This document shows, one piece after another, positions 6,847 through 41,698 of a DNA stretch of 41,698 nt (its first letter is position 1; every line of letters begins with the position of its first letter). The notes beneath the pieces were generated by a model. That model saw only the letters and a program-made list of their open reading frames with translations, was not told where the DNA came from and did not search any database. The position numbers were made by a program, and so were the translations under genes. Origin of the DNA: Planctomycetia bacterium. Lineage in GTDB: Bacteria; Planctomycetota; Planctomycetia; Pirellulales; Thermoguttaceae. Where the stretch lies: contig JAPLNP010000451.1 of the NCBI GenBank assembly GCA_026401055.1, positions 1 through 41,698 on the forward strand. Reading direction: 5' to 3'.

Positions 6847-6928
6847 GGGTGGCACGGCCCTGAGCGCAGCGAAGGGCGTGGTTTGCACGTCTGCCACGCC
6901 CTTCGCTGCGCTCAGGGACGTGCCACCC
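6847..6928. repeat. palindromic repeat, family C (35-base arms)
   Basis: Arms 6847-6881 and 6894-6928 pair at 34 of 35 positions around a 12-base loop; the inner part reads GAGCGCAGCGAAGGGCGTGG. It begins six bases after the bcp stop. A long hairpin without a T-run, distinct from the terminator that follows. Confidence 0.9.
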
Positions 6929-10155: not shown

Positions 10156-10229
10156 GGGGACCGGTCCCTTTTTCGGCGACGAGACGTGTTTTGTCCAGAA
10201 GACGTCGGCCGAAAAAGGGACCTGTCCCC
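10156..10229. repeat. palindromic repeat, family D (GGGGAC-ended arms)
   Basis: Left arm 10156-10177 (GGGGACCGGTCCCTTTTTCG...) and right arm 10208-10229 (ending GGGACCTGTCCCC) pair at 21 of 22 positions around a 30-base loop. It sits about 50 bases upstream of the next gene. Related GGGGACAG-type ends occur at 26216, 35944 and 41221. Confidence 0.88.
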
Positions 10230-11171: not shown

Positions 11172-11250
11172 AAACCGAGCCGCGCCCGTAAGGAAGCGAC
11201 CTGACGGGCGACTTTCTCACCCCACTCCCTCACGGTCGCGGCTCGGCTTT
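11172..11250. repeat. palindromic repeat, family B, degenerate copy
   Basis: The left arm 11172-11198 (AAACCGAGCCGCGCCCGTAA...) and right arm 11227-11250 (ending CGGTCGCGGCTCGGCTTT) are imperfect complements and match the perfect family B element at 19917-19994. It fills much of the gap between the two paralogous secreted proteins, just after a short CGGGTTTCAACCGG palindrome at 11138. Confidence 0.8.
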
Positions 11251-15987: not shown

Positions 15988-16056
15988 GATGTGTGGCTCA
16001 GCCGCCCTCGGCTGTGTTGGACGATTCTGTGCAGCCGAGGGCGGCTGGGCCACATC
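15988..16056. repeat. palindromic repeat between convergent genes
   Basis: Arms 15988-16014 (with CAGCCGCCCTCGGCTG) and 16032-16056 (with CAGCCGAGGGCGGCTG) pair except for a two-base indel. It lies between the stops of the S41 protease and the PEP-CTERM gene and may also act as a transcript end, though no T-run follows. Confidence 0.82.
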
Positions 16057-18441: not shown

Positions 18442-18494
18442 TGTCGCCTTTCGCTCCGCGAAAGAACGCCACTTTCGCGGAGCGAAAGGCGACA
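18442..18494. repeat. palindromic repeat, family A, short-loop copy
   Basis: Arms 18442-18464 and 18472-18494 are perfect 23-base complements (containing GTCGCCTTTCGCTCCGCGAA) around a seven-base loop. The arms are identical to the outer 23 bases of the copy at 2366-2447. It begins 19 bases after the stop of the DapA-family gene. Confidence 0.92.
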
Positions 18495-19916: not shown

Positions 19917-19994
19917 AAACCGAGCCGCGACCGTAAGGGAGCGGTGTTGCGGACATCCCCGTCGCACCGCTCCCTTACGGTCGCGGCTCGGTTT
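19917..19994. repeat. palindromic repeat, family B (perfect 30-base arms)
   Basis: Arms 19917-19946 (AAACCGAGCCGCGACCGTAA...) and 19965-19994 are perfect reverse complements with an 18-base loop. It lies between the convergent ackA and permease genes. A degenerate copy is at 11172-11250. Confidence 0.93.
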
Positions 19995-37686: not shown

Positions 37687-37700
37687 TCATTTGCGTTCAT
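37671..37700. repeat. 10-base tandem repeat reaching into the kinase gene
   Basis: Two copies of CCGCGTTCAT, then TTGCGTTCAT and TCGCGGTTCC stand in tandem. The kinase stop codon (37687-37689) and its last residues (NERK) lie inside this array, so the repeat set the protein's C-terminus. Confidence 0.8.
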
Positions 37701-40700
37701 TCGCGGTTCCCTTCCCTCCTTCCCCCGGCTCTTTCTTCGTCGGCGTTTCGATGCCGGCTGCCAGGGCTTTTTGCATCGCCTCGACCTCCGCCATCTCGAA
37801 GTTGCCGGTGATCGCGACCTTGGCGGCGATGGCGGACTTGATCGTCGGGGCCGTGACGACGCGGTCGTCGACCAGAATGGCCATCTGCCGGTCGGGGTGT
37901 TCGCCGGTCAGTTTGGCCAGACGCTTTCCGCCGGCCTCGTCGAGTTCCAGTTGCAGCATCGGCTTACCCCGTTCATCCCGGGCGAGCCCGACGGACGAGA
38001 GCTTCCAGTCCGGCGGGCCGTAGCGTCCCCCGAGCAGCACCTCGTCCGCCTTGGTCGAGAGCAACACGTATCGCCGGCCCTCGTGCTCAGCCGTGACCAG
38101 GTTCTGCCCGACGCCGTCCCGCGTCTCGAACCACGCCAGCCCACTCTCGGGTCGCTTCTGAAGGTCGAACGCCGGTGGCTGGGGCATCGTCTCCCGCGTC
38201 GGCGCAAGCCGGAAATCGAGATGGTCCGCCGGGACCAGCACCACCGGCTTCTCGGCCGGCTTCTTGCGCGAGAGAACCAGTTCGAACTCGTCCTCGCCGA
38301 GTTCCGTGTCGAAGCCGACGGGTCGCGGAGCGCCGGCGTAGTCCACGGTCGTGTGGCTCAGGGCCAGCCGAAGTGTCAGCACGTCTCCGTCGAGTCGGTA
38401 GATCCCTCGTATCGAACACGTGGCGGGCCTTGGCGGCGACCAATACATCAGACCCAGCGCCCCGCGGCTGCTCACGTCGATCGTTGCCGGCTTCGCCGTC
38501 GGGTCGATCGCATACGGCGGCGACACACTTGTTCTCTCGTCCAGTCGGGCCCCACCTATCCCGGGCGCAACGTCCGGGTCGCGAAGGAAAGCGAGGGAAG
38601 ACTTGTCGAACACGACGCCGCTCGTCATGGACAGCCACATCGAGAACGCGAAGGTCTCCCGACCGACCTCGCCACCGAAGGAATTTCGCTCTGTGACGCG
38701 ATAGTGGTCTGAGATCCGATCGGCCGTGATCTTCACGACGTGCCAGTCGCCCAGGATGGCCTTCTCGTCCGGGTGGGTTTCCACGTCGCCGACGCGGCGC
38801 AAGACGAGGAGCACTCGCTGGGAGCCGAACTCGGGCCAGAAGTCGGTCGGGCGGTCCTTTTCGGCGAGGCACAGCGTCAAGCGATCGCCTTCGAGCTTGT
38901 AGATGCCCAGGAGGTTGGTGCGGTCGGCTTTGCCGATGTCAATCCGCTTCGGCTCCGAGCCGGGGTTGATCTGGTACTTGCCCGAGGTCATCCAGACGCC
39001 GCTGCCGCGCAGCGTGAACGTGTCGCCGGTGAAGACGAACCTGGCCACGTCGCCGGTCGCTTGGGCCGGATCGTCGTAGTCTTGCCCGGTCGCCGTCTGA
39101 TGCGGCAGCACGTCCCGCGGAATGAAGTAACTCGCCCCGCCGCCATACGACTGGCTCACCACCGCCCACGTGCCCCGGAGGGACTGCTGGTCGTCGTTGG
39201 CCACGGCGTCGGCGGCGGGCGGGTTGGCCTCGGGCTTGGCGGGGGCGGCCTCCGGAGCGGCGGGTGTGGCCGGCTCGGCCTTCTCGCCCGAAGCGCGAAT
39301 CTCCAGATACGTCTCGGCCTCGGCCCGAATACCATTCGACGCCGTCACGGTCACCTGATGACGGGCCTTGGCCGCCGTTGTCAGGCAACGAAAGTGGATA
39401 TCCAGGCGAGTCGACTTGCCGGCGGGCAGACTGCGAAGCATCCAGGTGAGCTTCTCGTTCTCGATGCGGTACCCCGGCGTCGCCAGGAATGCCTTAAGGG
39501 GCGCGTCATAACGGTCGACAACCTTCAGGTTCTCCAGCGGTTTCGTTCCCGTGTTCGTTACTTCAAAGTTGAACTGCACCTTGTCGCCCACGACGCCATG
39601 TGCGGGGCCGGATATCTTCAGGCGGAGGGGGGACAGCGTTGCCGCGGTCGGCGGCGCGAGAGTTTGGGCTTCGACCGCATGCTCGTCGGCTTTGGCGCGG
39701 CCGACCGTTGAGCCGGCACGAACGGACCGCGCGTCGGGCGGCAGGGTGACGTTCACATTGCCGTCTTCGCCGATGTCGACTCTGGCGCCGTCGGGGACGT
39801 GGACGGCGGTTTGCTGGTCGCCGCGGCGGATCGTGATGAGGACGCCGCAAGCCGTGCCGAGGGCGAAGGAGAAGAGCATCAGGGCGATCACCGTCGTGAT
39901 GAGCTTCCAGCGACGGCCGGCGGGGAGCGTCTGGGGCGTTGCGCGCTCGGCGGCTTGGGGCGACGACTGGGCTTCGGCGCGGCGGAGGAGTTCCACCAGG
40001 TCGTGACCCTTCGAGAACGGGGCCAGCGCCGCAGCTACGGCGGCCGGCGTTTCGGGCCGATCGTCCGGCGATTTCGCGAGCATCCGGTCGACGGCGGCGG
40101 CCAACGCCTCGGGCACGTCGACCATGTCGGCGATTCGCGGGACGGGCCGATCGGTGTGGGCCGCGAGCTTTTCGAGCGTCCCCCCGCAGTCCGTCCCGTC
40201 ATACGGCGCCCGGCCCGACAGGAGCTTGAACAGCGTGCAGCCGAGGCTGTAAATGTCCGCCCGAATATCGACCGTCTGCGGCGCGGCGACCTGCTCCGGC
40301 GCCATGTAGTCGGCCGTGCCCATCGCCTGGCCGGTGTTGGTCAGCACGGACCGTCCGACATGGGATTGTGGTGCAGGCGTCCCGCCTGCATGGCTTTCGG
40401 CAGGCGAGACGCCTGCACCACAAGAAGGTGTCTCCGGGCCGCGCGCGAGCCCCAGGTCCAGGAGCTTCACGTCGCCGGAGCGGGTGAGCATCACGTTTGA
40501 CGGCTTGACGTCGCGGTGGACCAGGCCGTGTTCGTGGGCGTATAGCAGGGCCAGGGCCTTCCGGCGCACGAGCTCGCAGGCGTCGGCCACCGCGATCGGC
40601 CCGTGGCGGCGGACCAGACGGCCGAGGTCCATGCCGTCGACGTATTCCATGACGAGCACCGGCACGCCGTCGATCTCCCGGGCGTCGAAGGCCGCGACGA

Positions 40701-41178
40701 TGCCCGGGTGGTCGAGCTGGCCGATCGCTTTCATTTCGCGCCCGAATCGGGCGACGGCCTGGGGGTCGTTCATCCGCTCTTTGGCGATGACCTTCAGCGC
40801 GACGACGCGGTCGAGCTTGGTGTGCAGGGCCTTGTAGACGGTGCCCATGCCGCCCTGGCCGAGTTTCTCCAACAGGCGATACTCGCCGAGCGTGCCCAGG
40901 GCGAGCGATGCGGCCGAGGCGGCGTCGGGTTCAGTCATACCCTTTGCCCGGGCGAGGGCCGCGTCGCACTGCGACTCGGCGGCGAAGGGGTCGTCGGCCT
41001 CCGGCAGCCGCAGTTGGCCGACCAGGGTGTCGTCCGTGCCGTCGAGCGTGGCCAGCATCGCCTGGCAGTCGGGGTCACTTTCGACGTAAGCGGCCACCCG
41101 CTCGGAGTCGGCGTCCGAGAGCTTTCCAACGGCGTAGGCCAGAAGTTCTTCACGAGTGGGGCGTGCGGAGACGGTCAT
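37687..41178 (-). CDS. membrane Ser/Thr kinase with DUF11-like, TIGR03067-like and SecD-like extracytoplasmic modules
   Basis: The 1,163-residue protein starts with an anti-sigma-like helical segment (TREELLAYAVGKLSDADSER) lacking zinc ligands. A Hanks-type kinase follows with P-loop GQGGMG (107-112), Lys129, HRDVKPSN (221-228), DLG in place of DFG (241-243) and APE (293-295). Residues about 251-274 (CGAGVSPAESHAGGTPAP and neighbours) come from an inserted palindromic repeat in the activation segment. A membrane helix (425-450) leads to a DUF11-like domain (about 515-628), two TIGR03067-like domains (starting LRGTWAVVSQ, about 667, and ILGDWHVVKI, about 808) and a SecD P1-like end. That end has LDEAGGKRLAKLTGEHPD, ILVDDRVVTAPTI and ITGNFEMAEVEAMQ. 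The ATG at 41178 has AGGAACC upstream; an earlier start adds 29 unlike residues. It lies downstream of the ECF sigma gene. Confidence 0.9.
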   Translation of the reverse strand: MTVSARPTREELLAYAVGKLSDADSERVAAYVESDPDCQAMLATLDGTDDTLVGQLRLPEADDPFAAESQCDAALARAKGMTEPDAASAASLALGTLGEYRLLEKLGQGGMGTVYKALHTKLDRVVALKVIAKERMNDPQAVARFGREMKAIGQLDHPGIVAAFDAREIDGVPVLVMEYVDGMDLGRLVRRHGPIAVADACELVRRKALALLYAHEHGLVHRDVKPSNVMLTRSGDVKLLDLGLARGPETPSCGAGVSPAESHAGGTPAPQSHVGRSVLTNTGQAMGTADYMAPEQVAAPQTVDIRADIYSLGCTLFKLLSGRAPYDGTDCGGTLEKLAAHTDRPVPRIADMVDVPEALAAAVDRMLAKSPDDRPETPAAVAAALAPFSKGHDLVELLRRAEAQSSPQAAERATPQTLPAGRRWKLITTVIALMLFSFALGTACGVLITIRRGDQQTAVHVPDGARVDIGEDGNVNVTLPPDARSVRAGSTVGRAKADEHAVEAQTLAPPTAATLSPLRLKISGPAHGVVGDKVQFNFEVTNTGTKPLENLKVVDRYDAPLKAFLATPGYRIENEKLTWMLRSLPAGKSTRLDIHFRCLTTAAKARHQVTVTASNGIRAEAETYLEIRASGEKAEPATPAAPEAAPAKPEANPPAADAVANDDQQSLRGTWAVVSQSYGGGASYFIPRDVLPHQTATGQDYDDPAQATGDVARFVFTGDTFTLRGSGVWMTSGKYQINPGSEPKRIDIGKADRTNLLGIYKLEGDRLTLCLAEKDRPTDFWPEFGSQRVLLVLRRVGDVETHPDEKAILGDWHVVKITADRISDHYRVTERNSFGGEVGRETFAFSMWLSMTSGVVFDKSSLAFLRDPDVAPGIGGARLDERTSVSPPYAIDPTAKPATIDVSSRGALGLMYWSPPRPATCSIRGIYRLDGDVLTLRLALSHTTVDYAGAPRPVGFDTELGEDEFELVLSRKKPAEKPVVLVPADHLDFRLAPTRETMPQPPAFDLQKRPESGLAWFETRDGVGQNLVTAEHEGRRYVLLSTKADEVLLGGRYGPPDWKLSSVGLARDERGKPMLQLELDEAGGKRLAKLTGEHPDRQMAILVDDRVVTAPTIKSAIAAKVAITGNFEMAEVEAMQKALAAGIETPTKKEPGEGGKGTANERK
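40366..40423. repeat. palindromic repeat inserted in frame in the kinase gene
   Basis: Arms 40366-40389 (TTGTGGTGCAGGCGTCCCGC...) and 40400-40423 pair at 23 of 24 positions around a ten-base loop. The element adds about 20 residues between the kinase DLG and APE motifs without breaking the frame. Its translation GAGVSPAESHAGGTPAPQ is one I recall as a signature of such elements. Confidence 0.88.
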
Positions 41179-41488
41179 GGCACGGGTTCCTGCCGGGGTG
41201 GTGAGTAGGCGAGTTGGGCCGGGGACTGTCGCATTTTCGCGGCGGCGAGAACGTCGCCTCGCCAACCGGCGCTATCGCCGCGAAAATGGGGCTGTCCCCC
41301 TCGGGGCCCGCATTCGGTTTCTATTAGATTAACGCGGGCGTCTGACAGGAGTTCTGCGAGCGGGGCGGATCTTGCGGCGATTCTGGTGGGGCTTCGGCCG
41401 CCGTCGAACGGCATTTCCCCGACAGTCGGCAATTCGACGCGAGGTCGGTTTGGAGACCATACCGAGAATACGGTGGCCTCGGCCCACC
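41179..41488. other. 310-base gap between the sigma factor and kinase genes
   Basis: The gap holds an imperfect palindromic repeat at 41221-41299. No convincing open frame is seen. It separates two same-strand genes, so a promoter for the kinase may lie here, but none is clear. Confidence 0.55.
41221..41299. repeat. palindromic repeat, family D, imperfect copy
   Basis: Left arm 41221-41244 (GGGGACTGTCGCATTTTCGC...) and right arm 41276-41299 (ending GGGGCTGTCCCC) pair at about 21 of 24 positions around a 31-base loop. It lies 43 bases upstream of the kinase start. Confidence 0.8.
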
Positions 41489-41698
41489 CTACGGGGTTAA
41501 TCCGCCCAATTCCTGCCGCAGGCGACGCAGCACGCGGGATTTGGCCTGATAGACGGCGGCGACGCTCATGCCGAGGTCCGCGGCGACGTCGGCCGGGGAT
41601 TGACCGTCGACCGTGGTTCGCCAAAAGGCATCCCACGTGCGGGCCTCGAACTCCGAGCGGACCAACTCCAGGACGCGACGCGGGAGCGAACTCTCGGC
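41489..41698 (-). CDS. ECF-type RNA polymerase sigma factor, C-terminal part (partial at window edge)
   Basis: The last 69 residues are inside the window. They contain a region 4 helix-turn-helix: WDAFWRTTVDGQSPADVAAD, then LGMSVAAVYQAKSRVLRRLR, ending QELGGLTP. The WxAFWR and VYQAKSRVLRRLRxE patterns are those of planctomycete ECF sigma factors. The gene ends 310 bases before the membrane kinase on the same strand, a common pairing in this phylum in which the kinase is thought to respond to or control the sigma factor. The N-terminus is outside the window. Confidence 0.85.
   Translation of the reverse strand, partial: AESSLPRRVLELVRSEFEARTWDAFWRTTVDGQSPADVAADLGMSVAAVYQAKSRVLRRLRQELGGLTP

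Follow-up and report, generated by a model that had tools for sequence, protein, structure and literature searches.

The window analyzed here, a 41,698-nucleotide stretch of DNA from a Planctomycetia bacterium, encodes a Ser/Thr kinase whose activation segment is interrupted by a near-perfect palindrome. The locus raises the question of whether this palindrome is an inserted mobile element and, if so, why a kinase gene would keep it in the segment that carries its activation residues.

The kinase reading frame spans 1164 codons, stop included, and its codon use is coding-like. The kinase domain matches Pkinase (PF00069) at 4.9e-46, and the catalytic Lys, HRD, DLG and APE are all present. An AlphaFold2 model built from 43 sequences had a mean pLDDT of 87.7, with most of the core above 90. 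Values below 50 occur only at residues 161-176 and 179-194, and the palindromic element occupies residues 163-182 in the model numbering. The best match to the model among solved structures is M. tuberculosis PknB (5u94), with a TM of 0.91 by target length. The model predicts with confidence that the PknB fold is kept and that disorder is confined to the loop. The catalytic motifs and the predicted fold place the protein among the PknB-type Hanks kinases. The T-loop Thr pair is intact a few residues after the insert and aligns with the TQT of PknB, whose threonines are the known activation sites. The two halves of the kinase share the same nearest relative, so a misassembly or chimera of two kinases at the repeat is unlikely, and a misjoined pair was rejected on this basis. 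The ECF-sigma-like gene upstream of the kinase has a similar counterpart in two other genomes of the set, G035 and G026.

The earlier note on this DNA described a 58-base near-perfect palindrome, in frame between the DLG and APE motifs and read through as about 20 extra residues. This description is borne out, and its motif numbering is that of Table 1. The element is a 58-bp inverted repeat with 24-nt arms that are 96% complementary and spaced 10 nt apart. Its DNA fold energy is -30.1 kcal/mol compared with a shuffle mean of -10.6 (z = -9.6), and none of 200 shuffles equaled it. The fold of the coding strand has z = -10.8, and the RNA fold of the insert is -50.4 kcal/mol (z = -10.4). The element is open in the kinase frame as 19 full codons plus one shared codon and is translated as S-CGAGVSPA-ESH-AGGTPAPQ.

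By the published definition, a REP has a 5' GT(A/G)G head and, behind it, a GC-rich palindrome whose middle is short (PMC2817692). Each arm of the window element (TTGTGGTGCAGGCGTCYCGCCTGC) has the layout TT-GTGG-T-GCAGGCG-TCY-CGCCTGC, in which the GTGG head is followed by the arm's own stem-loop (GCAGGCG-TCY-CGCCTGC). The head and the GC-rich palindrome, with its middle within the 2-4 bases of a REP, are those of a REP with one extra T between head and stem. Two such REPs stand inverted around a spacer, the arrangement of a REPIN, and forms with three REPs are also present. These features identify the window element as a REP doublet, not a simple palindrome. The window holds at least eight more strong palindromes, which belong to several different families and mostly fall between predicted genes. 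One of these families, at window position 19917 (AAACCGAGCCGCGACCGTAAGGGAGCGG), also occurs near a Y1_Tnp match in contig C471.

Table 1. Positions of the kinase gene, its motifs, the palindromic element and related features (window coordinates unless a genome and contig are named).
Feature	Position	Strand	Description
Ser/Thr kinase gene	37687..41178	-	N-terminal region, PknB-type kinase domain, probable TM segment, DUF11, TIGR03067, SecDF_P1_head
ECF-sigma-like gene, 3' end, upstream of kinase	41489..41698	-	identity by sequence resemblance only
DLG motif (residues 241-243)	40450..40458	-	motif
REPIN	40366..40423	.	two inverted GTGG-tagged REP hairpins, 10-nt variable linker; in frame in kinase, ~20 residues
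REP arm 1	40366..40389	+	TTGTGGTGCAGGCGTCCCGCCTGC; GTGG head, 7-bp stem, 3-nt loop
REP arm 2, inverted copy	40400..40423	-	minus-strand sequence TTGTGGTGCAGGCGTCTCGCCTGC
T-loop TNT (residues 280-282)	40333..40341	-	aligned with TQT of M. tuberculosis PknB; just downstream of insert
APE motif (residues 293-295)	40294..40302	-	motif
Further window palindromes	2366-2447, 6847-6928, 10156-10229, 11175-11246, 15992-16054, 18442-18494, 19917-19994, 41232-41288		
99-bp MITE copies, examples (L082, L067, L061)	C593:15068, C214:6634, C96:24126		host G000, 14 places
RAYT-like transposase L336	G058:C113 7350-8729		

Loop length was measured from DLGLA to GTADY (GT.DY) in about 100 kinases of the order. 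The mode in the relatives is 19 residues compared with 41 in the window kinase, and the loops of close relatives are nearly all 18-23 residues long, including those of two kinases from G066. In the alignment, relatives at 50-59% identity are gapped where the extra residues of the element fall; the relatives compared for an empty site all belong to other genera. Because related kinases are without these residues, the window element is an insertion. The earlier note had proposed this alignment and had named, as evidence to the contrary, the same residues in distant orthologues without palindromic DNA; no such orthologue appeared among the kinases compared. The element is 58 bp long and the net gain is a multiple of three, which requires two extra bases, and the TC found on both sides is compatible with this. 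A fixed target-site duplication was rejected, since the flanks of the standalone copies in the host genome show no consistent one.

A census of the host genome (G000) was based on fetched genome stretches and a home-made codon-score gene model. The arm count that had been suggested alongside the alignment gives about 30 places in 6.7 Mb, and the arm is thus not unique. All but two or three of these places are intergenic, often less than 100 bp from a gene end by the codon-score model. The copies in coding frames are the kinase copy, one in contig C593 and perhaps one in contig C140. The many, mostly extragenic copies are those of a REPIN, at a number lower than the more than 100 usual for REPs. 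About 16 of the copies are standalone, and three of these have three hairpins. The arms of the standalone copies are near-identical, and their 9-12 nt linkers are unrelated in sequence; arm identity despite differing linkers hints at homogenization of, or constraint on, the arms. Another 14 or so copies are near-identical, each within a 99-bp element that has terminal inverted repeats (GTGCCTGTCC/GGACAGGCAC) and apparent TNA-like target duplications. This 99-bp element is a MITE that carries a REPIN of the arm family in its middle. One MITE copy lies in frame within a 714-codon reading frame.

Of the 297 genomes of the order, 13 have the exact 24-nt arm pattern; they represent 10 of 123 genera, and the reversed control pattern had no match in the 297 genomes. 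A RAYT-like gene with a Y1_Tnp match above cut-off is surrounded by more than a dozen clustered arm copies on contig C113 of G058. The coding frame of this RAYT-like gene itself holds several in-frame copies of the surrounding REP. The host genome, which is 87% complete, has six Y1_Tnp matches, several with other palindromes nearby; none of the six lies near the window REP, and no RAYT flanked by it was found there. The host RAYT nearest to the G058 protein is encoded on C593; it is 42% identical and has other REPs around it.

Family members also lie in frame in other proteins, among them a PSD1 domain, a sugar ABC ATPase, a GltX anticodon domain and an SNF2 domain. The 5' arm is read in the frame that begins CGAG and is rich in Gly/Ala/Pro in 9 of the 10 readable in-frame copies, the kinase included, and in another frame in the tenth. 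At least 9 of 10 in one frame has P ~4e-4 if the three frames are equally likely (calculated by hand; one contig holds three of the copies). The frame bias suggests selection for a harmless peptide. The presence of copies of the same family in frame in other conserved proteins supports the view that the kinase tolerates its insert.

Loops longer than 40 residues were found in only four of the roughly 100 kinases: the window kinase (41), G035 (46), G026 (101) and G002 (114). Palindromes other than that of the window fill the same loop in sister genera: the G035 loop contains a GGGGACAGCCCCCATTTG...CAAATGGGGACTGTCCCC palindrome, and the G002 loop contains several stacked palindromes, at least four by eye. 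The palindromes of these two loops match many other contigs of G002 and of the host genome and a few of G035. The 101-residue loop belongs to the closest relative of the window kinase (L037, on G026 contig C121) and is Ser/Asp-rich. It was rejected as a further repeat, since it is without a strong inverted repeat and has no second copy in the G026 genome.

A first tree placed the four long-loop kinases in one group (SH-aLRT 91). When the G066 kinases were added, the short-loop L275 and L276 were sister to the pairs window plus G026 and G035 plus G002, with bootstrap/SH-aLRT values of 99/79 and 94/83. The forks around these pairs have moderate support (bootstrap 94-99, SH-aLRT 74-83). Each pair thus has a short-loop kinase as sister, and at least two loop expansions is the simplest count. 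The insert sequences of the two pairs are unrelated. On this count, palindromes colonized the activation loop at least twice independently. A single ancestral insertion may underlie both the G035 and the G002 loop, as their elements are of one broad type. An inverted-repeat scan of 99 kinase domains returned three matches in the activation loop, those of the window, G035 and G002 kinases, one in the beta7-beta8 turn and one weak match, with 1.0 expected by codon shuffling; the kinases were sampled by similarity to the window kinase, so the clustering is descriptive and does not constitute an enrichment test. The match in the turn belongs to the kinase of G076 (L285, contig C94), which carries a palindromic-arm doublet (AGGCACACGCCGTGTGCC...) there in frame.

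The account that very probably holds is that a REPIN inserted into the activation-loop tip of a PknB-type kinase and was kept because it does no harm at that position. A REPIN is a non-autonomous pair of REPs that is normally moved by a RAYT (Y1/HUH) transposase, and here a RAYT acting in trans would have placed it at the loop tip. All three reading frames of the arms are open, so presumably only the length of the insert had to fit, and copies would be preferentially kept in the frame that gives a structureless Gly/Ala/Pro-rich peptide. Few sites in the domain may be able to take up 20 or more additional residues, the segment from DLG to the T-loop threonines being one of them. The insert would lengthen a segment that is already mobile and leave the catalytic and activation residues untouched. 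The kinase with a longer tether from DLG to the phosphothreonine is probably still active, and any effect on autophosphorylation should be mild at most. The best reading of the insert is a passenger at an insertion-permissive site, and passive tolerance is the simplest account of it.

The position of the insertion in a regulatory segment would suit decay, with the insertion as part of the breakdown of a pseudogene. A long open frame with coding-like codon use, the retained catalytic Lys, HRD, DLG and APE, and the confident fold leave next to no probability for a pseudogene, which was rejected. The earlier note's preference for tolerance over decay is upheld by the intact motifs and the confidently folded core. 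GC richness alone might seem to account for a palindrome in coding sequence. Such a chance origin is scarcely conceivable given z-scores near -10, and fold and copy number together rule it out: there are about 30 host places and the exact arm recurs in 13 of 297 genomes against none for the reversed control. The stability of the RNA fold raises the prospect that a coding-region hairpin slows ribosomes or attenuates translation. This effect is quite improbable as the reason for the insert, because any REPIN carries its hairpin wherever it inserts, the hairpin at the loop site is not conserved outside the group and the long G026 loop is without one.

An unlikely reading is that the insert now serves the kinase. 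Its longer loop would alter autophosphorylation, substrate docking or regulation, and the group would repeatedly gain loop inserts because they are useful. All four loops above 40 residues are in one small kinase group and were reached by different routes, the G026 loop being non-palindromic and unrepeated in its genome, and the window insert ends only a few residues before the T-loop threonines. However, the two pairs have inserts of unrelated sequence, which is what a need for space alone would produce, equivalent copies occur in many unrelated proteins and the close G066 kinases are without an insert. The broader proposal that selection for loop extension in this kinase group makes mobile palindromes hit the loop again and again, with mobile DNA furnishing new regulatory segments to a signaling enzyme, is doubtful. 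Passive tolerance of a mobile element remains the preferred explanation, and the loop appears to be a site at which mobile DNA can land in an enzyme without harm.

The related kinases with loops of 19, 41, 46, 101 and 114 residues form a natural insertion experiment on a well-understood switch, with the extra residues supplied mostly by mobile DNA. With this series it can be tested how much length and sequence the stretch between DLG and the T-loop threonines can bear, and whether protein novelty arises from mobile palindromes beyond Rickettsia as well. The literature searched held nothing relevant on REPINs in Pirellulales or on palindromic repeats in the activation loops of planctomycete kinases. 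As far as that literature shows, the family in this order, the kinase site with its repeated occupation and the graded series of loop lengths are new.

The window kinase shares fold, motifs and the T-loop threonine pair with M. tuberculosis PknB-type Hanks kinases and differs in an activation loop 22 residues above the mode of its own relatives. The window family resembles the REPINs and REPs associated with RAYT (TnpA_REP) in its GTGG head, short GC-rich stem-loop, inverted pairing and variable linker. Its copies likewise number in the tens and lie mainly between genes, close to gene 3' ends, and in one relative (G058) they cluster around a RAYT-like gene. It differs from typical REPINs in its modest copy number, the extra T between head and stem, the residence of some copies inside a larger MITE and the lack, in the host genome, of a RAYT flanked by its own REP. 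Rickettsia RPE and intragenic GTAG/CGTC REPs lie in frame in genes of conserved proteins and add about 20-30 residues, and intragenic REPs are known in several phyla, including Verrucomicrobia (PMC3733652). Coding palindromes have also been described in nematomorph mitochondria (PMC6649704). Different REPs occupy about the same recB site in two Xanthomonas species, so the repeated use of one site by palindromes has a direct precedent (PMC3733652). The window family shares with RPE the in-frame palindromic insertion in conserved genes, a likeness of behavior with no claim of membership. It differs from RPE and intragenic REPs in its site, a kinase activation segment, at which sister lineages carry unrelated or stacked palindromes.
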